Of a stretch of DNA of 63,832 nt, positions 1,221-47,084 are shown in pieces. The translations under genes and the position numbers were made by a program. Location of the stretch: positions 1-63,832 of the forward strand of contig JAFXUX010000003.1 of NCBI GenBank assembly GCA_017524805.1, written 5' to 3'. The notes beneath the pieces were generated by a model. It worked only from the letters and a program-made list of their open reading frames with translations. It ran no database searches and had not been told where the DNA came from. The first letter of the stretch is position 1; the number at the start of each line of letters is the position of its first letter. This stretch comes from Candidatus Methanomethylophilaceae archaeon. Lineage in GTDB: Archaea; Thermoplasmatota; Thermoplasmata; Methanomassiliicoccales; Methanomethylophilaceae.

Positions 1221-2176
1221 GTCATTCCTCCTCCAGTGATATGAAGCCTACCGGAGATATAATAGAGACGATTTCCAAGAATATTTGGATGATCCGAATT
1301 AAGCGTTCGGACCAGAAGCAGCAAAGTTCCGGCCACGATGCCGGCCAATCCGATTGCGCCTTTCTTGGACAGCTTCTCTTTGAAGACCAGGAATGAGAAC
1401 GCTATCGCGACCAGTATGCTGAGCTTGTCGATGGGAACGATTATGCTTGCGGGACCGGTCTGCAGAGCGCCGAAGAAACACATCCAGGACGCGCCCGTGG
1501 CAAGCCCAGACAGTACGACGAACAGCATGTCCTTCCGTCCTATGCCCCTCAGCTTGTCCTGTTTATTCGTCACACAGATCATCGTCCAGGACATGATCAG
1601 GACCACGACGGTGCGGATCGCGGTCCCCAGATTGGAATCGATGTCCTGCATTCCGACTTTGCCGAGAATCGACGTAAGCGCAGCGAACACCGCCGAGCCT
1701 ATGGCGAACAGCAGCCAACCCGCGCGTTCGTTGGCCTCTTCGACATCCTTCTTCTCGATCATCATCATAGTGCCGACCAATATCAGCGCGACTCCGATGC
1801 ACCCCCATGCCGACAGAGTCTCCCCCAGAAGGATCACGGCGAGAATGATGGTCAGGACATTGCTGGATTTGTCGACCGGGACGACCTTGTTCACATTGCC
1901 GATCTGCAGCGCTTTGAAATAGCACAGCCAGGAAGCTCCTGTGGCCAGACCTGACAGTATCAGGAACAGCCAGGTTTCCCCGCCTATGTCCCCGACGGAA
2001 GAGTATGAGCCTGCGGCCATGACGATAGCCCATGCGAACAGCATCGCCACTGCGGTGCGGTATGCGGTCGCCACCGTCGAGTCCACATTCTGCAGGCCGC
2101 ATTTCGCTAAGATGGATGTCAGGCCGGCGAACAATGCAGACCCAACAGCCAGAAACAGCCACACTTCCTCCGCCAT
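1196..2176 (-). CDS. EamA/DMT-family transporter, two repeats
   Basis: The protein has 326 residues and about ten hydrophobic segments in two homologous halves (about 3-140 and 150-290). Each half begins with a similar motif, LFAGLTSILAKCGLQ and VFAALTSILGKVGMQ, and contains LSGLATGASW. This is the drug/metabolite transporter fold, acting in the cytoplasmic membrane; the substrate is unknown. Its normal end is near residue 293. The last ~35 residues are an unusual hydrophilic tail, which suggests the original stop was lost. It lies downstream of ABC operon A on the same strand, after a hairpin, so it is probably a separate unit or a readthrough gene. Confidence 0.85.
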   Translation of the reverse strand: MAEEVWLFLAVGSALFAGLTSILAKCGLQNVDSTVATAYRTAVAMLFAWAIVMAAGSYSSVGDIGGETWLFLILSGLATGASWLCYFKALQIGNVNKVVPVDKSSNVLTIILAVILLGETLSAWGCIGVALILVGTMMMIEKKDVEEANERAGWLLFAIGSAVFAALTSILGKVGMQDIDSNLGTAIRTVVVLIMSWTMICVTNKQDKLRGIGRKDMLFVVLSGLATGASWMCFFGALQTGPASIIVPIDKLSILVAIAFSFLVFKEKLSKKGAIGLAGIVAGTLLLLVRTLNSDHPNILGNRLYYISGRLHITGGGMTWIMKSTP

Positions 2177-2209
2177 ACCGCCCCATAGCTTTATTCAATA
2201 AGTAATGGA

Positions 2210-2223
2210 GAGGCCGAAGCCTC
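2210..2223 (-). terminator. UUCG-loop hairpin after ABC operon A
   Basis: On the minus strand GAGGC and GCCTC close a TTCG tetraloop just after the stop codon of the ATPase gene at 2230. The same design follows the genes ending at 8573 and 12164. Confidence 0.55.
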
Positions 2224-2229
2224 CCGGTT

Positions 2230-3009
2230 TCATTCCTCGCGTATGGCACCGTTCAGAATGACATGGGGCCTGCCATTCACTTCGATGATGTCCGCGTCCA
2301 CGCCGTACACGGTGCGCAGATTCTCTTTGGTGATGACCTCTTTCGGAGTTCCGACGGCATAGATCGATCCTCCGTAAAGCATGATGATCTTGTCGGCATA
2401 CTTCGCGGTGATGTTGATGTCGTGGCTGATCATCACTATGATCATGTTCTTGGTCCTCGGCAGCTCGCTGAGGATCCTGGTCACCTCCAGCTGATGGCGC
2501 ACATCCAGATTGGAAGTGGGCTCGTCCAGGATGACCATGTTGGGCATCCTCACCAATCCCCTTGCCAGAACCACCTTCTGATGCTGCCCGGCGGACAGCT
2601 CGTTGAAGTTGCGCATGGCCAGATGCTGGATGCTCATCAGGTTCAGGACGTCGTAGACCTTCTCCAGATCCTCCTTCTTAGTGCCGAACTTGGCGTCGTT
2701 CTGGAGGCCCACCATGATGGTGTCGATGACGGTCAGAGGGAAATTGTCCTCCGAGGAAGCGGGAACATACCCCATGTTGGCCGCCAGCTCCTTCAGCTTC
2801 ATCTCCCTGTTGTCTTTCCCGTCGATCAGGACTGCCCCGCCGGTCGCTTTCAGGATCTTGTTGATGCAGTGCACCAAGGTTGATTTCCCGACCCCGTTCG
2901 GACCCAATATGCAGATGAACTCCGGCTTCTCGAAAGTGTAATTCACTCCCGAGAAGACCGGCTTGCTTGGGTCGTATCCGAACTCCAGGTCTTTCAGTTC
3001 TACCTTCAT
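2230..3009 (-). CDS. ABC transporter ATPase, iron/cobamide type (operon A)
   Basis: This 259-residue protein is the cytoplasmic ATPase of a FecCD/BtuCD-type importer. It has Walker A (GPNGVGKST, about residues 36-44), a signature LSAGQHQK, Walker B MVILDEPTS and the switch histidine in MISHD. A short C-terminal extension ends in PHVILNG, a motif also present at the ends of the ATPases of operons B and C. This marks the three as one paralogous family. It follows the permease gene by 4 bases, so the two are co-translated. The substrate cannot be told from sequence; ferric siderophore or corrinoid is most likely. Confidence 0.93.
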   Translation of the reverse strand: MKVELKDLEFGYDPSKPVFSGVNYTFEKPEFICILGPNGVGKSTLVHCINKILKATGGAVLIDGKDNREMKLKELAANMGYVPASSEDNFPLTVIDTIMVGLQNDAKFGTKKEDLEKVYDVLNLMSIQHLAMRNFNELSAGQHQKVVLARGLVRMPNMVILDEPTSNLDVRHQLEVTRILSELPRTKNMIIVMISHDINITAKYADKIIMLYGGSIYAVGTPKEVITKENLRTVYGVDADIIEVNGRPHVILNGAIREE

Positions 3010-3013
3010 GGGA

Positions 3014-4057
3014 TCACCACGCGCTCTTCCTCTGCTTGATCAGCAGATAGAGGAATATCGGCCCGCCGATGAACGACGTGATCACACCCACAGGCAGGAA
3101 TGTCGGCGCCAGTATCACCCTTGCGATAAGGTCCGAGACCATCAGCAGGACCCCTCCGAACACGGCCGCCGCCGGGATGAGATAGCGGTTGTCCGAGCCC
3201 AGGAACATCCTGACGATGTGCGGCGAAACCAGTCCGATGAATCCGATGATCCCCGTGAAACAGACGACCGATGCGGCCATCAGAGAGATCAGCAGCAGGA
3301 GGATGATCCTCAGCTTGTGGGCGTCCAATCCCAATGCCGTGGCGTTCTTGTCTCCGGTGATCAGGATGTTGAGTTTCTTGGACATCAGCATGAGCGTTAT
3401 CGATCCGACCACGGTGAAGCACATCATTATCCCGCAGTCGTTCCACGTGACTCCGCTCAGATCTCCCACGGACCAGTTGAACACGGATGCCAGACTTGCG
3501 TCGGACAATCCGAGCTTGATCAGCGTGGTGCATGCGTTGAACAGATACATGACGGCGATACCCGCAAGAATCATGGTCGCCGCGGATGTGCTCCTCAGCG
3601 ACGATACCAGGATGATCACCGCGGCAGGAATGAGCGAAAACACGAACGCGAACAGGACCAGGCTGACGCTCCCGCCGAATCCGGCGAAAGAGAGCCCGAG
3701 CCCCAGAGCCAATGTGGCTCCGAACGATGCACCCGATGATATTCCCGTGGTGTACGGATCCGCCAGGGGATTCTTCATCATGCTCTGCATGGCGGCCCCG
3801 GCGACGCCCAGCGACATTCCGGCGATCATGCCGGCCATTATCCTAGGCAGACGGATCGTGAATATCGCCCAATCCGCATCGGGATCCAGCGCATCGGGGT
3901 TGAAGAAATGGTTGAATATCGTTTCGTAGACCTCTATGAAAGAGATCTTCGAGGAGCCTATGGTGGTGGCATAGCCAATCACCAAAATCATTCCGATGAT
4001 GCAGCCTAAAATGAAAAGCAATTTCCTGCGGGTATAGCGATGATACTCCGCCATCAT
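3014..4057 (-). CDS. FecCD-family ABC permease (operon A)
   Basis: A 347-residue membrane protein with about ten hydrophobic helices. It carries FecCD-family signatures: MAGMIAGMSLGVAGAAMQ, NPLADPYTTGISSGASFGA and GFIGLVSPHIVR, the last being the loop that contacts the ATPase. Two copies would form the transmembrane channel for an iron-chelate or cobamide. It starts at an ATG at 4057, about 110 bases after the binding-protein gene. A GC hairpin lies in that gap, which probably sets a lower level of permease than of binding protein. Confidence 0.93.
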   Translation of the reverse strand: MMAEYHRYTRRKLLFILGCIIGMILVIGYATTIGSSKISFIEVYETIFNHFFNPDALDPDADWAIFTIRLPRIMAGMIAGMSLGVAGAAMQSMMKNPLADPYTTGISSGASFGATLALGLGLSFAGFGGSVSLVLFAFVFSLIPAAVIILVSSLRSTSAATMILAGIAVMYLFNACTTLIKLGLSDASLASVFNWSVGDLSGVTWNDCGIMMCFTVVGSITLMLMSKKLNILITGDKNATALGLDAHKLRIILLLLISLMAASVVCFTGIIGFIGLVSPHIVRMFLGSDNRYLIPAAAVFGGVLLMVSDLIARVILAPTFLPVGVITSFIGGPIFLYLLIKQRKSAW

Positions 4058-4136
4058 CTGGTCGCTTTCCGTATGGTCCGTATTATCAACCTCTTTTCAG
4101 AAACGGAATGGGACTGAACGATCCGAAACGGACCGA

Positions 4137-4154
4137 CAGGGGTCCGGCCCCCTG
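4137..4154 (-). promoter_or_regulatory. intercistronic GC hairpin, operon A
   Basis: CAGGGG and CCCCTG pair across a 6-base loop between the binding-protein stop and the permease start. Operons B and C have comparable hairpins at the same place. The likely role is transcript stabilisation or partial termination that favours the binding protein; that is an inference. Confidence 0.45.
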
Positions 4155-4169
4155 CCGATCCCCGGAAAA

Positions 4170-5554
4170 TCAATTCATCAGTTCCTCATATTTCTCGTCG
4201 GCGAATTTGAGGTCGAAATATGTGTACTGGAACCATTCGCTGGCATTCACTCCGGGATGATACTCCTTCATGTAATCGTTGAACAGCTTTTCGATGTCGA
4301 AGTTGAAGACTCCGGGGTAGATGTGGTTGGCTATGTACGCGGTCAGGATGAACGAGGCCGCTCCCAGACGGACTCCCTGGGTATTGATGAGCACCTTGCC
4401 TTTCTCGTAAGCCTGGGTGTGGTCGATCGCCTGGATGCTCTTCATGTCATCCTCGTAGAGCTTGGTCAGATCCCACTTGAACGTGTCGATGACCGAGCCG
4501 TCTGTCTGCTCGAGCACTCCGTGCCAGGGCTGGAGGAGGATCCAATCGGGGTTCATCTCTTTGATCGCTTCCGCGTCGACGTTTCCCTTGGGATATCCGC
4601 GGTCGATGGCGGTGGACGCTCCGGCGAGGACGACAGGCTCGATGTATCCGTTCTTGTAGTCGACTACCGCGGAAGCGTTGTGGCTCGCGAATACGAACGG
4701 ACGTTCCGACATGGGTATGTCCTTGACGTGCTTGGCGATCGTCTTGTAGACCGCGTCTGCCATGTCGACATACTTCTTGGCGTTCGCCTCGTTGTCGGTC
4801 AGGTATCCGAGCATGAGGATGCCGGGGATGGCCCATCCGTCCTCGTATGAGGGCAGCCTGATGATGTCGACTCCGCGTGGTCCGAGAACCTCTTCGCCGG
4901 TCTTGACGTAGTATCTCTTCGTCCCGGTGATTATGCAGCTGGGCATGTCTCCCGTCATGGATTCGTAGTCGGGGTGGCCCTGTTCCCGAAGCATTTCGCA
5001 TCGCTGAACTGCGGATACCACTGCCTCAGCTCTCCCTTGCCGGGGACGTCTCCGACAGAGTCGCAGACCCATTTGACTTCGTTGGAGGTCAGACCGGCCG
5101 CGGCCGCCATCTCGTAGATTGTCTTATATGCCAGGCCGATGGTTGTCAGAGGATAGTTGCAGGTCGAAAGGACGTTGTCGACGTTGATGTAGTTGATTTT
5201 GATCCCATGCTCGCGCTTGACCATCTTCTTGACCAGCTCCAGATCCTTCGAGTCTACGGCGCCGTCCGCGTTGGCATCGGCCAATGAGCGGTTTATGGTC
5301 TTGCCGTCGTAACTGTCCAGAACAGAGACGACCACGGAGCCTGTGACTTTCCCGTCGATGATGTCCTGGATGTATTTCACATCGTCATCGTTGATGTAGT
5401 CGTCGTTGTTAGCGTTGCCTAATATCGGCAGCCTTCCCTCATATTCGTAGGTGGGCTCTTTCTCGCCGCCCCCGTTTGTGAGAAGGACAGCCGCTATTAT
5501 GGCGGCCGCCGCAACGGCAACCACGGCTATTATTGCGATTATTTTTTTGTCCAT
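4170..5554 (-). pseudogene. dockerin-bearing ABC substrate-binding protein, frameshifted (operon A)
   Basis: The start is the ATG at 5554 (MDKKIIAIIAVV), giving an N-terminal membrane anchor with no lipobox. Residues ~45-120 hold two EF-hand loops of the dockerin pattern (NANNDDYINDDD and DANADGAVDSKD). A periplasmic-binding-protein domain of the iron/cobamide type follows. The frame breaks near 4981: the first frame stops at 4955 and a second, open from 5072, continues the domain to 4170. Adding one C near 4982 would restore a continuous reading (FGNQGHPDYESM). This is a real single-base deletion, a slippage site or a sequencing error. Otherwise the protein would bind ligand at the cell surface for the adjacent permease. 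Confidence 0.8.
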
Positions 5555-5627
5555 GGATACCACTGTACGTATAATCCAGCAATAGACCCATCACTAACTA
5601 TTTAACTAAAATAGAAAAAACATAGAG

Positions 5628-5686
5628 TAAATGAAATTATGGGACCATAAATACATGATGGATAAATGGTCCCATAATTTCATTTA
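5628..5686. repeat. 21-bp perfect inverted repeat
   Basis: The 21-base arms at 5628-5648 and 5666-5686 are exact reverse complements around a 17-base spacer. Each arm contains ATTATGGGACCAT or its complement. It lies between operon A's binding-protein gene (minus) and the amber-interrupted ORF at 5771 (plus), in AT-rich sequence. It could be an extended operator, a strong RNA hairpin or the relic of a mobile element. Confidence 0.85.
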
Positions 5687-5770
5687 TGCCGTTGTCGGAA
5701 CATCACCATAATATTTAGGTAAGGCAAAACACGGAAGGATAATACGAAAATCCCCAAGCCTTTGTAGCCT

Positions 5771-6508
5771 ATGCAATTTGATTCCGATTCGTCGGAATCG
5801 GTCGAAACAGCTACGTTCATAGATGGCGATACCAAAATAACGTCATCCTCGTACAGGGACGATGCGGGATTGATGGTCGTATTCCACGATTGCCTTTCAG
5901 CCTGCTACAGGGGCATGAACTAGGGGCAGAAGTTCAATGGATTGCTGCTGAACGTATACATCTTGGGAAGCTCGCGCAGAACAAGCGATTCCTACGATGG
6001 AGAAAGGATGGCGGGATGCGGGAACATCGCCCGTCCGTGGACAAGCTGCTGCGACATCTCCTCCGAAACGAAGCGCATACTGTCTGTGGCCGTAGTCGTG
6101 CTGATAGACGATTTCAAGCTCAGCCGCTATGGGGAGCATACGGACATGATCCTCCAAACCCTGATGGGCAGGTACTCCGAAGGCAACATCCAGTTCGCGA
6201 TGAGCGATGTGTCGATGGCTTACTGCTATGCGCTGTATAAGCTGCAGCAGGAAGACGATATGGGCCGCAAAAGTGACCTTGTCAGGGAGCTGGTCACAGG
6301 GCTGCTGCTCGAAATCTATTCCAATCATCTGACTTCATTGCCAGCGCATCAAATAAATGGTATGGCAGATCGGACCGCTGAAACACAATATCGGGACTAT
6401 TTTCCCACACAGGAATGGATTTATCGTTTTTTATCAGCGAAATGCAGGTCGGTGCCGCAATGGCGGCGGCGAAGTGTCTGCACATCCGCATCCGCCGGAC
6501 ATTCTTAA
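5771..6508 (+). CDS. unrecognised protein with in-frame TAG at codon 51 (Pyl candidate or pseudogene)
   Basis: From the ATG at 5771 one frame runs 245 codons to the stop at 6508, interrupted only by TAG at 5921-5923. The reading looks like protein on both sides: DDAGLMVVFHDCLSAC before it and GQKFNGLLLNVYILG, then ILSVAVVVLIDDFKLS, after it. I recognise no domain. The part after about residue 195 is less convincing and may be out of frame. No clear ribosome site precedes the ATG, and another TAG in the same frame lies just upstream of it. Alternatives are a gene starting after the TAG (ATG at 5942) or a decayed gene. Confidence 0.4.
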
Positions 6509-12953: not shown

Positions 12954-14099
12954 TCACCACACGTTGGAGTTCTTCCTCAGGAGCAGCCACAGGAACATCG
13001 GTCCTCCGAGGAACGCGGTTATCACTCCCACCTGGAGCACCGCGGGCTGGATGATGACCCTTCCGACCAGATCCGAGACGACCAGCAGAGCGCCTCCGAA
13101 CAGCGCCGCCGCCGGGACCAAGTATCTGTTGTCGGCTCCGATGAACAGCCTGACGACGTGGGGCGCCACCAATCCGACGAAACCGATCAGGCCGGTAAAG
13201 CTGACGATTCCGGCGGTTATCAGCGCCACCAAGACCATCATTATGGTCCTGAGCTGGGCGGCGTTCACTCCCAGGGAGTTCGCCATGTCGTCCCCAGTCG
13301 ACAGCACGTTGAGCTTCTTCGACAGGAACATGATTATCACCGCGCCTACGGCGGTTATGCCGAGGGACACCACGATGTCGTCCCAGCTGGCTTTGGCCAG
13401 GGACCCGACCTGCCACTGGTACACGGCTTCCAGGTCGTTGGGGTCCGCCATGAGCATCATGACGGTCGTGAACGCGTTGAATATGTACATGACCGCGATT
13501 CCGGCCATGATCATCGTCGTGGGGGAGGATTTCTTTACTCTGGCCAGGCCGACGATCAGCGCGGTGGGTATGAGAGAGAAAACGAACGCGTTGCCTATGA
13601 CATCGTATCTCCCGCCGAAAATGCTGAATCCCGCAAGCATGGCGAGAGTCGCGCCGAAGGATGCGCCGGAAGAGACTCCGGTTGTATAAGGGTCCGCCAG
13701 AGGGTTCATCAGAGTGCTCTGCATGGCGGCTCCGCATATGGCCAGGCCGGCTCCGGCAACCACTCCCATGACCACGCGGGGCATGCGCAGCGTGCATATG
13801 GCGTAGTCGAAAGCGTCGTTGGTGATGTTCCCGGTGATGTGGTTCCACATCGTTTCGTAGGTTTCGATGAAGGTTATGTCCATGGGGCCGATTGTGGTGG
13901 CGAGACCAGCCGTGACCACCATGACCACTATGCATGCGGCCATGAAGACCCATTTGCGCCAGATGTACGTGTCATACTGGTGGTAGGATTCCTCGTCCTC
14001 CTTGGTCTGCTCGCGTTCGTCGGTCCATTTGCTGAGCGCCCTCAGCACCTTCTTACTGATGAGAGGGTCTTGTTTGAGGTCTGAAATGTTTTCATCCAT
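12954..14099 (-). CDS. FecCD-family ABC permease (operon B)
   Basis: About 381 residues, with an extra ~40-residue hydrophilic N-terminus before the first helix. The family motifs are NPLADPYTTGVSSGASFGA, MGVVAGAGLAICGAAMQ and GLIGFVGLVAPHVVRL. I prefer the ATG at 14099 (MDENISDLKQ), which has AGGA just upstream, over the GTG at 14111. The N-terminal extension resembles that of the operon C permease and is missing from operon A, so B and C look like the closer pair. It is a membrane channel for ligand delivered by the binding protein at 14172-15596. Confidence 0.92.
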   Translation of the reverse strand: MDENISDLKQDPLISKKVLRALSKWTDEREQTKEDEESYHQYDTYIWRKWVFMAACIVVMVVTAGLATTIGPMDITFIETYETMWNHITGNITNDAFDYAICTLRMPRVVMGVVAGAGLAICGAAMQSTLMNPLADPYTTGVSSGASFGATLAMLAGFSIFGGRYDVIGNAFVFSLIPTALIVGLARVKKSSPTTMIMAGIAVMYIFNAFTTVMMLMADPNDLEAVYQWQVGSLAKASWDDIVVSLGITAVGAVIIMFLSKKLNVLSTGDDMANSLGVNAAQLRTIMMVLVALITAGIVSFTGLIGFVGLVAPHVVRLFIGADNRYLVPAAALFGGALLVVSDLVGRVIIQPAVLQVGVITAFLGGPMFLWLLLRKNSNVW

Positions 14100-32862: not shown

Positions 32863-34029
32863 TCATCCCCATACCTTGCTGTTCTTCCTGACAATCAGCC
32901 AGAGGAACAGCGGTCCGCCCATGAACGCGGTGACCACACCCACCTCCAACTGGGCGGGAGCGATTATCGTGCGTCCGATGAGATCCGCGACGACCAGCAG
33001 CAAAGCTCCGAAAGCGGCGGAAGCCGGAAGCAGGAACCTGTTGTCTGGACCGACGAATATCCTCACGATGTGCGGGGCCACCAGACCGACGAATCCGATG
33101 AGCCCGGTGAAACTGACAACGGCGGCGGCGATGAGCGCCACTATGAGAAGGATCAATCTCCTCATGCGGTCCGCGTCGACTCCGAGCGATTTCGCGGTGT
33201 CGTCTCCGGTAGAGAGGATGTTCAGCTTGCTGGTCAGGAACTGGAGCGCTATCACGCCTGGGATGACGAACACAGCCATCACGACTACGTCGGAGGATCC
33301 GGCCATCGCCAAAGATCCTACGGTCCAGCGGTACAGCTGCTGCAGCTTCTCCGGCTCGGCCATCAGAGATATCAGCGTCGTGAAGGCGTTGAATATGTAC
33401 ATGATGGCGATACCCGCCATGATCATCGTCGTGGGAGAGCCGTTCCGCAGCTTCGACAGGATGATGATCACGAACATGGGGATCAGCGAGAACACGAACG
33501 CGTTGATGACGGTGGTGTACTGCGCGGGGACCCCGAAGATCGATATCCCAAGCACTATGCCTATGGTCGCTCCGAAACTTGCTCCGGACGACACTCCTGT
33601 GGTGTAAGGATCGGCAAGCGGGTTCATCAAAGTGCTCTGCATGGCGACACCTGCCGCCGCGAGACCGACGCCTGCCAATATGCCGAGATAGACCCTCGGC
33701 AATCTAATGTCGAATATTATGCTGGCTTCCAAAGACTCCCTGCCCTGCGGGAACTGATAGCCTGTGATCTGCTGGAATATGATCTCATAGCATCTCCCGA
33801 CTGACAGCGGATAGTCGCCGACGGTCAGCGCCAACAGAAGCACCGCGAAAGTGGCGACTATACATACGACAATGAACACCCATTTTCTGTGGACATACTT
33901 CTTGTATTTGTCCACGATCGAATTGGTGGTGTCGTCCCTGTTATCCTCGGCGGGGGCGTCCCAGATGCCCAACGATTTCCTGACGACGTCCTTTATGAGC
34001 GGATCGTCGGATACGATGTCTGAGGACAT
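32863..34029 (-). CDS. FecCD-family ABC permease (operon C)
   Basis: 388 residues with an extra N-terminal hydrophilic segment of ~50 residues, as in operon B. Motifs are NPLADPYTTGVSSGASFGA, LGILAGVGLAAAGVAMQ and GLIGFVGLVAPHIVRI. It has about ten transmembrane helices. It starts at the ATG at 34029, fifty bases after the binding-protein stop and just past a GC hairpin. It probably transports the ligand caught by the Big_2/dockerin binding protein at 34079-35953. Confidence 0.93.
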   Translation of the reverse strand: MSSDIVSDDPLIKDVVRKSLGIWDAPAEDNRDDTTNSIVDKYKKYVHRKWVFIVVCIVATFAVLLLALTVGDYPLSVGRCYEIIFQQITGYQFPQGRESLEASIIFDIRLPRVYLGILAGVGLAAAGVAMQSTLMNPLADPYTTGVSSGASFGATIGIVLGISIFGVPAQYTTVINAFVFSLIPMFVIIILSKLRNGSPTTMIMAGIAIMYIFNAFTTLISLMAEPEKLQQLYRWTVGSLAMAGSSDVVVMAVFVIPGVIALQFLTSKLNILSTGDDTAKSLGVDADRMRRLILLIVALIAAAVVSFTGLIGFVGLVAPHIVRIFVGPDNRFLLPASAAFGALLLVVADLIGRTIIAPAQLEVGVVTAFMGGPLFLWLIVRKNSKVWG

Positions 34030-40816: not shown

Positions 40817-40892
40817 TGGTGCCGTGAGCCGGGCTCGAACCAGCGACTTCAAGATCTTCAGTCTTGCACTCTCCCAACTGAGTTACCACGGC
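40817..40892 (-). tRNA. tRNA-Phe (GAA)
   Basis: On the minus strand a full cloverleaf reads from GCCGTGG to the encoded CCA. The anticodon stem CAAGA/TCTTG holds loop CTGAAGA, giving anticodon GAA. The T loop is TTCGAGC. No intron is seen. Confidence 0.95.
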
Positions 40893-40991: not shown

Positions 40992-42134
40992 TCAGCATCC
41001 CAGCCGGATAGTCTCGAACTCCACATCGGTGCCGAAGTCCTTCAGATGCAGGATCTTGGATTCGATCAGAGGGAGCGAATCGCTGTCGCACACCAGCATG
41101 GAGTCCCTGCCCATCAGGCATTCTCCCATGCACGACTCGAACCCGTTGAAAACGTAATCCGCCGGCAGCGAAGCCCCGTACATCATCCTGCGGGATGACG
41201 TCCCGAACACTCCCACCTTGGAATCGCCTCTTCCGGCCAGAATCTTCCCGAGAGCCGCGGCGTCCGAATCCGCGTCTGTCGGGACCACCGTCATCCTGCC
41301 TTTCGGCCCGGATGCCATCTTGGATACCAATTGAGACTCCGTCCTGGGATATGGTGCGGGATCTTCCCCGCGCAATGCGGCGAGATTGCCGTTGATGATG
41401 AACATCGAGGGCTGCATGACGCCGGTTGAATGGACCGCTAAGGGATCGCAATAGAAATCTTCGGAACTCCCGGAGAATATGAGCTCTCCTTTCCTGAGCA
41501 CATGGATCTCGTCCGCCCACGCGTATGCCAGATCGACGTCGTGGGTGGATATCACTATGGTCGTACCCTTGTGGTGCAGCTGCTCCGCGAGCTCCATAAG
41601 CTCCAAAGCCATCTGCGGGTCGAGGCCGGCGGTAGGCTCGTCCATTATCAGGACCTCCGGCCTCATAGCCAGGGCCCCGGCCAAAGCCAGCCTCTTCCTC
41701 TGCCCGTACGAGAGCTGGAGCGTGTTCTTGCTCCTGAGATCCCCGAGACCGGTCTGGAAAAGGGCCTCCTCGACCCTCTGCTTGACCTCTTCCTCAGGGA
41801 GCTTCATGTTCCTGGGACCGTAGGCAATATCCGCTTCCACGGTCTGCCCGAACACCTGATCGTCGGGATTCTGAAGTACCACGGCAACCTTGGAGCGCAG
41901 CGCCTTCAGACCTTTCTTCCTGTAGCTCACAGGCTCCCCCATGACCCTTACGACGCCTTCCTTGGGCTTCACGACGCCGTTGAAATGGTAGAAGAGGGTA
42001 GATTTCCCGGCGCCGTTTGCGCCCAGTATGACGGTCTTGACGCCTTTCTTGATGGATATGCTGACCCCTTTCATGGAGGGCGTCTTCGAGCCTTCGTAAT
42101 AGTAAGTGATGCTTTCGGTCTCGATCACGCTCAC
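40992..42134 (-). CDS. cbiO: ECF-type cobalt/nickel transporter ATPase with C-terminal extension
   Basis: 380 residues, starting at GTG 42134, which overlaps the stop of the upstream gene (GTGA); GGAGGT lies six bases before it. Residues 1-235 form a CbiO-type ATPase: Walker A GANGAGKST, Q-loop NPDDQVFGQTVEADIAYGPRN, signature LSYGQRKR, Walker B VLIMDEPTAGLD and switch STHD. Residues ~240-380 are an extra domain homologous to the whole of the upstream small protein. The membrane partners CbiM and CbiQ are not in the window, so this is an orphan ATPase here. The metal specificity (Co or Ni) is inferred from family only. Confidence 0.88.
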   Translation of the reverse strand: MSVIETESITYYYEGSKTPSMKGVSISIKKGVKTVILGANGAGKSTLFYHFNGVVKPKEGVVRVMGEPVSYRKKGLKALRSKVAVVLQNPDDQVFGQTVEADIAYGPRNMKLPEEEVKQRVEEALFQTGLGDLRSKNTLQLSYGQRKRLALAGALAMRPEVLIMDEPTAGLDPQMALELMELAEQLHHKGTTIVISTHDVDLAYAWADEIHVLRKGELIFSGSSEDFYCDPLAVHSTGVMQPSMFIINGNLAALRGEDPAPYPRTESQLVSKMASGPKGRMTVVPTDADSDAAALGKILAGRGDSKVGVFGTSSRRMMYGASLPADYVFNGFESCMGECLMGRDSMLVCDSDSLPLIESKILHLKDFGTDVEFETIRLGC

Positions 42135-42535
42135 ATGACCACCTCCACAGATTTGCCGAACTCTTTCATGGCATCGATGCGGCCCAATACCGCGCCTTTG
42201 ACGCATTCGTCGCAATATAGGACGGAATCCCTGCCGGAAATCGCCTCCATGAGGCAGTATTCAACGGCGTTGAAGTGGAAATCAGGCGCCATGTCGGCGG
42301 CCCTGAAGAGACGGCGGACGTTGGAACCGTATATGCCCACACGCCCGGTTCCGGCGGGCTCTGGCAGCGAATCCGACACCGCAATAAGGCGTATCTTGCC
42401 GACGGATGCGTTCTCCGGAAGCATCTTGCAGAGCATCTGGCTGTTCGTCCTCGGGAACGGTGCCTCCGGCTTCCCGCGTATGGCCTGCACCGAATGGTTC
42501 ACAGAGAACGTGTGCGGCAATACCAAGCCTGACAT
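42131..42535 (-). CDS. stand-alone copy of the CbiO C-terminal domain
   Basis: 134 residues with no ATPase motifs. They align over almost their full length with residues ~240-380 of the following CbiO: EAPFPRTNSQML with PAPYPRTESQLV; GRVGIYGSNVRRL with SKVGVFGTSSRRM; FNAVEYCLMEAISGRDS with FNGFESCMGECLMGRDS. It is either the relic of a second CbiO that lost its ATPase domain or a dedicated regulatory or metal-sensing subunit. The four-base overlap (GTGA) and the intact frame favour a functional gene. Confidence 0.75.
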   Translation of the reverse strand: MSGLVLPHTFSVNHSVQAIRGKPEAPFPRTNSQMLCKMLPENASVGKIRLIAVSDSLPEPAGTGRVGIYGSNVRRLFRAADMAPDFHFNAVEYCLMEAISGRDSVLYCDECVKGAVLGRIDAMKEFGKSVEVVM

Positions 42536-42566
42536 CGCAAAAAAAATTATGCGGACGGATTGGTGC

Positions 42567-42602: not shown

Positions 42603-47084
<4,482 letters not shown>

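Follow-up and report, generated by a model that had tools for sequence, protein, structure and literature searches.

A probable cbiO1 remnant beside a CbiO with a DUF7839-like C-terminal domain in a Candidatus Methanomethylophilaceae archaeon

Genes at the locus and the two parts of CbiO2

We have analysed a stretch of 63,832 nucleotides (the window; contig JAFXUX010000003.1 of assembly GCA_017524805.1) from a Candidatus Methanomethylophilaceae archaeon, whose genome (G000) comprises 1.95 Mb in 47 contigs and is 98% complete. The window encodes a stand-alone protein of 134 residues directly upstream of cbiO2 (Table 1). The two genes overlap by 4 nt (GTGA, 42131-42134), which is the coupled arrangement described in an earlier note on this DNA, and the stand-alone protein is homologous to the C-terminus of CbiO2, as that note had stated (BLASTP: 35% identity over 140 columns, E 8e-25). 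This homology is far beyond chance. When the whole genome was searched with the stand-alone protein, the sole other match was the CbiO2 copy (E 5.9e-20).

Table 1. Features of the locus (positions in the window; L032, nearest relative)
Feature	Position	Strand	Basis or remark
tRNA-Phe downstream, right-hand flank of the cbi insertion site	40817-40892	-	Synteny
cbiO2, ECF-type cobalt transporter ATPase with C-terminal DUF7839-like domain	40992-42134	-	GTG start, 380 aa
cbiO2 residues 279-380, extra DUF7839-like C-terminal domain	40995-41300	-	Profiles, predicted structure
cbiO2 residues 1-278, canonical CbiO part	41301-42134	-	5x3x_A structural alignment
Stand-alone protein, probable cbiO1 remnant (3' part only)	42131-42535	-	ATG start, 134 aa, frame intact
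Remnant residues 43-134, DUF7839-like domain with invariant Cys94	42134-42409	-	hhalign and conservation
Remnant residues 1-42, probable leftover of the canonical CbiO C-terminal helical tail	42410-42535	-	Aligned to CbiO2 236-278
Probable deletion junction, after ...TTTTTTTTG (gyrA terminator to cbiO1; 1-nt shared G)	42537-42538		L032 alignment
gyrA, complete; 3' end and terminator form the left side of the probable deletion	42603-45122	-	ORF

The ABC motifs of CbiO2 are intact (GANGAGKST, LSYGQ, LIMDEPTAGLD and STHD, which we take to be Walker A, the signature, Walker B and the switch His), and most of their positions are invariant across 70 full-length sequences. CbiO2 passes the TIGR01166 cbiO model with 240 bits (cut-off 211.8). 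Its relatives are encoded together with CbiM and CbiQ, and the copy in the window genome is not. The CbiO2 of the window is a CbiO by descent that has no transporter.

AlphaFold2 predictions, made for single chains only, gave confident folds both for the full CbiO2 (pLDDT 96.4, pTM 0.92, 70-row alignment) and for the remnant alone (pLDDT 93.8, pTM 0.85, 83-row alignment), the latter being the domain-alone prediction that had been proposed earlier. The solved CbiO structure 5x3x (5x3x and 5x40 are presumably both CbiO of Rhodobacter capsulatus) aligns over its whole length with residues 1-278 of the CbiO2 model (Z 35.4, rmsd 2.5, 277 residues aligned, 39% identity). Because 5x3x covers residues 1-278, the first ~40 residues of what had been described as an extra domain of ~140 residues belong to the usual CbiO tail, and only the ~100 residues 279-380 are additional.

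The stand-alone protein is a CbiO fragment. It matched no Pfam or NCBIfam model at E up to 1 and showed no nucleotide-binding domain, and a search for solved relatives by sequence (as P0001) returned none at E up to 10. The only solved-structure match of the domain profile, a 3-oxoacyl synthase (E 1.3), was taken as chance. In structural searches, the best matches of remnant residues 42-134 have the tetrapyrrole methylase fold (CbiL, CysG, 3hh1; ranks 1-43, part of which we take to belong to the tetrapyrrole methylase family). However, only the N-terminal half of that fold is matched, with Z of 4.3-6.0 lying below the tool's guide value of 8, and Foldseek with the domain gave nothing at E 0.001 or better. 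Considering that these structural matches are weak (Z at most 6.0), we do not claim a relationship to the tetrapyrrole methylases.

The cbi operon in relatives and the junction behind gyrA

With the 134-residue protein as query, 38 of 389 genomes sampled from the phylum gave matches. In most genomes of the window's family the domain occurs twice, ~1.1 kb apart and both times within a long open frame, and genomes from the order's other families carry it once. Among the 46 loci compared (L001-L046, of which L001 and L002 are the window itself), wherever a locus covers the neighbourhood each copy ends a full-length CbiO, the two CbiO proteins being encoded in tandem with CbiQ upstream, and the loci that are long enough also show CbiM and CbiN upstream. 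The gene order in relatives is cbiM-cbiN-cbiQ-cbiO1-cbiO2, with the domain ending both CbiO proteins. Within the genus, the domain is present in 23 of 31 genomes; the window is the only short-frame case (169 aa), and the other 22 have every copy in frames of at least 350 aa. The genome survey suggested earlier, for the domain without the ATPase, returned no stand-alone copy among the 31 genus genomes besides that of the window.

The nearest relative (L032, JAEEJP010000122.1 of MAG Tb.RUG.172) carries the operon directly after the same gyrA terminator as in the window, with genes for CbiM (304-975), CbiN (972-1259), CbiQ (1291-2130), CbiO1 (2127-3245) and CbiO2 (3242-4375); Pfam confirmed CbiM, CbiN, CbiQ and the ABC domain of CbiO1. 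The cbiO2 of L032 is 89% identical to that of the window, and the remnant is 81% identical to the L032 cbiO1 tail. The full second CbiO whose occurrence in neighbouring species the earlier note had named as a refutation is therefore present, in the nearest relative exactly at this place. Since a full cbiO1 stands at the same site and the other genus frames have at least 350 aa, a dedicated stand-alone domain gene is refuted and the fossil of a duplicated CbiO, one of two options offered earlier, is supported; for the other option, an allosteric partner, no positive evidence was found. A stand-alone sensor gene was rejected as the main reading on the same grounds, namely the full cbiO1 of the sister genome and the lack of any other stand-alone copy in the genus. 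In addition, the ~40 CbiO-tail residues of the remnant, which a purpose-made sensor gene would not need, favour the fossil.

The junction was located by aligning L032 positions 1-141 and 2838-3245 with the window. Bases 1-141 of L032 are 100% identical to window 42678-42538 and hold the last 76 nt of gyrA and the terminator region. Beyond ...TTTTTTTTG, L032 runs through an AT-rich stretch to cbiM, and the window resumes at L032 position 2838, inside cbiO1, the joined pieces sharing one base at the break. Compared with L032, the window is without ~2.7 kb comprising the promoter region, cbiM, cbiN, cbiQ and the ATPase domain of cbiO1. Further downstream, tRNA-Phe and the next protein follow in the same order in the window and in L032. 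Three other relatives (L118, L120 and L121) have gyrA and then the same downstream gene with no cbi genes between, which indicates that the cbi operon arrived here before the window and L032 lines split. L032 also has three extra ORFs (4468-5961) between cbiO2 and the tRNA region that are missing in the window, one of them glutathione-peroxidase-like by eye and one MarR-like.

We consider it very probable that the stand-alone protein is the undeleted 3' end of cbiO1, left by a ~2.7 kb deletion of the cbi operon. The ancestor shared with L032 would have had cbiM-cbiN-cbiQ-cbiO1-cbiO2 between gyrA and the tRNA-Phe region. A single deletion, running from just past the gyrA terminator into cbiO1, would have taken the promoter region and the genes up to and including the cbiO1 ATPase domain, and what was left over would be the cbiO1 tail with its old 4-nt overlap and an intact, partnerless cbiO2. 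The homology of the two tails would come from the old cbiO duplication, each tail consisting of a normal CbiO C-terminus and the DUF7839-like domain.

The same junction would also be seen if the operon were whole in the organism and the contig misjoined the end of gyrA to the middle of cbiO1. The junction is known from one genome only, whose assembly is in 47 contigs, and the 141 identical bases contrast with the ~88% identity of the surroundings between the window and L032. The name of the L032 record starts with 'k141', and contigs of such assemblers overlap their neighbours by k bases at branch points. The L032 contig probably starts at a branch point of the assembly graph (k=141) that it shares with another genome of a mixed sample, which would explain the exact length of 141 bases and leaves a small chance that either contig is mosaic. 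However, the joined pieces share a single base, which makes a repeat-driven misjoin unlikely, and an erroneous join in the window would have needed reads spanning this one-base junction, which we also judge unlikely. The flanks are arranged as in the sister genome, and the other contigs of the assembly (98% complete) do not contain the missing 2.7 kb. Used as a DNA query against the assembly, the deleted L032 segment had no second copy; it matched the paralogous stretch of cbiO2 (69% identity), and the rest were chance-level matches of at most 45 bases. CbiQ (PF02361) and CbiM (PF01891), which the earlier note had found missing nearby, gave no match in the whole window genome. We therefore regard an assembly artefact as unlikely and infer that the deletion is real in the living organism. 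No other CbiQ-type T component was detected, so that CbiO2 is presumably an orphan.

In a maximum-likelihood tree of the 83 domain sequences, which has only 143 columns and many unresolved forks, the remnant falls within a clade of 19 cbiO1 domains (support 100/99) as sister to the cbiO1 of the L032 genome, and the window's CbiO2 domain falls within a clade of 19 cbiO2 domains (99/94). A recent duplication of the domain within the genome was rejected because the two window copies fall into two different clades with good support, each of which includes the sister genome. As judged from this tree, the cbiO duplication behind both tails is old, within the window's family, and the recent event would be the deletion. 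It could also be supposed that the domain was first a separate gene and was fused to CbiO later, the window keeping the ancestral stand-alone form. DUF7839-like domains do exist outside CbiO, but the remnant is nested in the cbiO1 clade with the identity to the sister cbiO1 tail given above, carries a CbiO tail itself, and stands where the sister genome has a full cbiO1. We give this idea hardly any credence.

Between the window and L032, codon counts gave dS 0.77 and dN 0.117 for the remnant, a ratio of 0.15; the ratio is 0.16 for the cbiO2 domain and 0.07 for the cbiO2 ATPase part. When amino-acid differences were polarised with L033 and L044 as outgroups, 7 changes in the remnant fell on the window branch and 4 on the L032 branch (13 unpolarised), compared with 7 and 4 (15 unpolarised) in the cbiO2 domain and 6 and 4 (8 unpolarised) in the ATPase part. 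Pseudogene decay was sought in the remnant by these codon counts, and no stop, frameshift or excess of changes was found. P7, G70 and C94 (remnant numbering) are invariant in 83 of 83 domain sequences. With no sign of relaxed selection on the remnant, the deletion is recent unless selection still acts on what is left, and the missing signs of decay weaken any claim that the deletion is old. This undecayed state is the chief observation that fails to favour a dead remnant.

Accordingly, the remnant could have been kept as a functional partner that binds CbiO2, or another CbiO-like dimer, in trans by way of its CbiO tail and its DUF7839-like domain. Its low dN/dS, its intact frame, start codon, 4-nt coupling and three invariant residues, and the confident fold predicted for it alone would all agree with such a role. 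On the other hand, there is no transporter left to regulate, and among the 31 genus genomes the window genome is alone in having a stand-alone copy. The distance from the gyrA stop to the remnant ATG is 67 bases, and the 160-base stretch that precedes cbiM in L032 has been lost; with the gyrA terminator directly upstream, expression of the remnant is doubtful. The Met start also aligns with 'MTGL' in L044 and may be an old internal Met. We consider a functional partner very unlikely. The remnant is presumably functionless, and is itself a case of ordinary gene loss.

Cobalt uptake across the genus

CbiM was found in 22 of the 31 genus genomes, including G398, apparently the assembly that L032 comes from, and is absent from nine. 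In the high-quality subset (completeness at least 90%, contamination at most 5%), four of 17 genomes are without CbiM, namely the window genome (G000), G156, G201 and G319. The last three are also without the CbiO domain, and cobalt ECF uptake has been lost more widely in the genus in these genomes. The pairing of CbiM and the domain has two exceptions: G402 (76% complete) has the domain without CbiM, and G405 (61% complete) has CbiM without the domain.

The window genome has 24 matches to FecCD/BtuC-type permeases in its 1.95 Mb, which is an unusually rich set of corrinoid or siderophore importers. With these permeases, corrinoid import could replace cobalt uptake, and the cell presumably relies on it. 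On the other hand, CbiC is retained in the window genome; corrin synthesis, which needs cobalt, thus seems to be retained as well, and this counts against the deletion reading. Both cbiOMQN and BtuFCD are reported to be widespread in the order (PMC10804542). In the probable deletion scar we would accordingly see a gut methanogen relative that is losing its cobalt uptake but still has at least one gene of corrin synthesis and two dozen permeases of the FecCD type. Three of the FecCD/BtuC-type matches lie inside the window, at 3035-3988, 12975-13907 and 32887-33849 (-).

The extra domain and DUF7839

The extra domain, which the earlier note did not recognise, can be placed by profile evidence. 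In the window proteins it matches no Pfam or NCBIfam model, including PF25211 (DUF7839; gathering cut-off 27 bits). A profile built from the 83 domain sequences matched 53 of the 389 phylum genomes, 37 of them in the order, on CbiO, and 16 outside it (E 3e-8 to 2.6e-4). We fetched 12 of the 16 outside loci, and in all 12 the match lies near the C-terminus of an ORF of 254-370 aa. Pfam was run on five of these ORFs, and all five have PF25211 at the C-terminus (four over the cut-off) and winged-helix models at the N-terminus; the remaining seven look alike by eye. In the opposite direction, PF25211 was matched by 22 of the 83 CbiO-domain sequences (best E 9.6e-5), and any other Pfam model by at most one. 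Comparison of the CbiO-domain profile with the winged-helix set by hhalign gave 98.5% probability (E 2.2e-15) over 92 columns, the match beginning at column 44 of the CbiO-domain profile; this comparison is partly selected, because the winged-helix set was gathered via matches of the same profile, whereas the Pfam count is unselected. The hhalign controls gave at most 0.5% for eight column-shuffled profiles, 0.6% for the reversed profile and at most 2.9% for the CbiO ATPase parts. A common ancestry of the CbiO extra domain and DUF7839 is thus detectable at the level of profile comparison. Considering that the window copies fall below the Pfam model, the domain is best called DUF7839-like.

PF25211 itself was found in 103 of the 389 genomes, once per genome. 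Of these genomes, 68 belong to the class but not to the order, 33 to the rest of the phylum and two to the order. The two matches in the order (G325 and G265; E 0.001 or better) lie inside CbiO genes and under the cut-off. The model is also matched in the control genomes of M. jannaschii, H. volcanii and M. acetivorans. In Methanomassiliicoccales, the profile finds the DUF7839-like domain on CbiO in 37 of 56 sampled genomes, and a separate DUF7839 gene, sought at E 0.001, was found in none of the 56. The domain appears to sit on the transporter where the winged-helix regulator is absent, a correlation within one phylum that may reflect a single event.

In terms of known systems, the locus resembles the CbiMNQO cobalt ECF transporter in that residues 1-278 of CbiO2 match the solved chain and the relatives have CbiM, CbiN and CbiQ beside CbiO. 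It differs in that the operon of the relatives has two tandem CbiO proteins with ~100 extra C-terminal residues each, and in that the window genome is without the membrane subunits. The extra domain shares profile similarity with DUF7839 across the 92 columns, but its partner domain is an ABC ATPase instead of a winged helix, and the Cys that is invariant in the CbiO versions is missing in most of the 12 winged-helix versions. MetN and ModC likewise have an additional C-terminal domain on the ATPase of an ABC importer; by binding substrate where the two halves of the dimer meet, these domains are reported to shut the importer down (PMC10710835). CbiO carries a different domain from these. To our knowledge, MetN and ModC are not ECF ATPases.

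By analogy with MetN and ModC, the likeliest role of the domain in the intact relatives would be regulatory. The invariant Cys is a candidate ligand residue, and a built-in cobalt or corrinoid sensor on CbiO is plausible by the same analogy. A more specific proposal is that the domain is a cytoplasmic cobalt or corrinoid sensor, with the Cys as the likely ligand, which trans-inhibits the ECF transporter, and that it moved from a winged-helix regulator onto CbiO in Methanomassiliicoccales, where the regulator was lost; the winged-helix form would then control transcription in other Thermoplasmatota. We put this forward tentatively and regard it as rather unlikely in its full form.

We consider that the CbiO with a DUF7839-like tail, as a new form of a known transporter family, is the more useful part of these results than the remnant. 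The more lasting point is that a DUF7839-like domain seems to sit on a winged-helix protein in most Thermoplasmatota carriers and is found on CbiO in Methanomassiliicoccales. Should both versions respond to one and the same signal, the transporter, with a substrate that is presumed known, would disclose which ligand an uncharacterised family of archaeal regulators binds. In the partial literature collection available to us, nothing was found under the name DUF7839, and an architecture of CbiO with a C-terminal domain or extension was not found described.

The gene context of the winged-helix DUF7839 proteins was inspected at 10 of the 12 loci, and it showed no consistent neighbourhood, most neighbours looking unrelated by eye. 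At one locus (L131 145-3590, in G253), the winged-helix DUF7839 gene lies directly behind, and overlaps with, a gene set encoding a binding protein, a FecCD permease and an ABC ATPase, and its DUF7839 domain has the Cys that is common to the CbiO versions.
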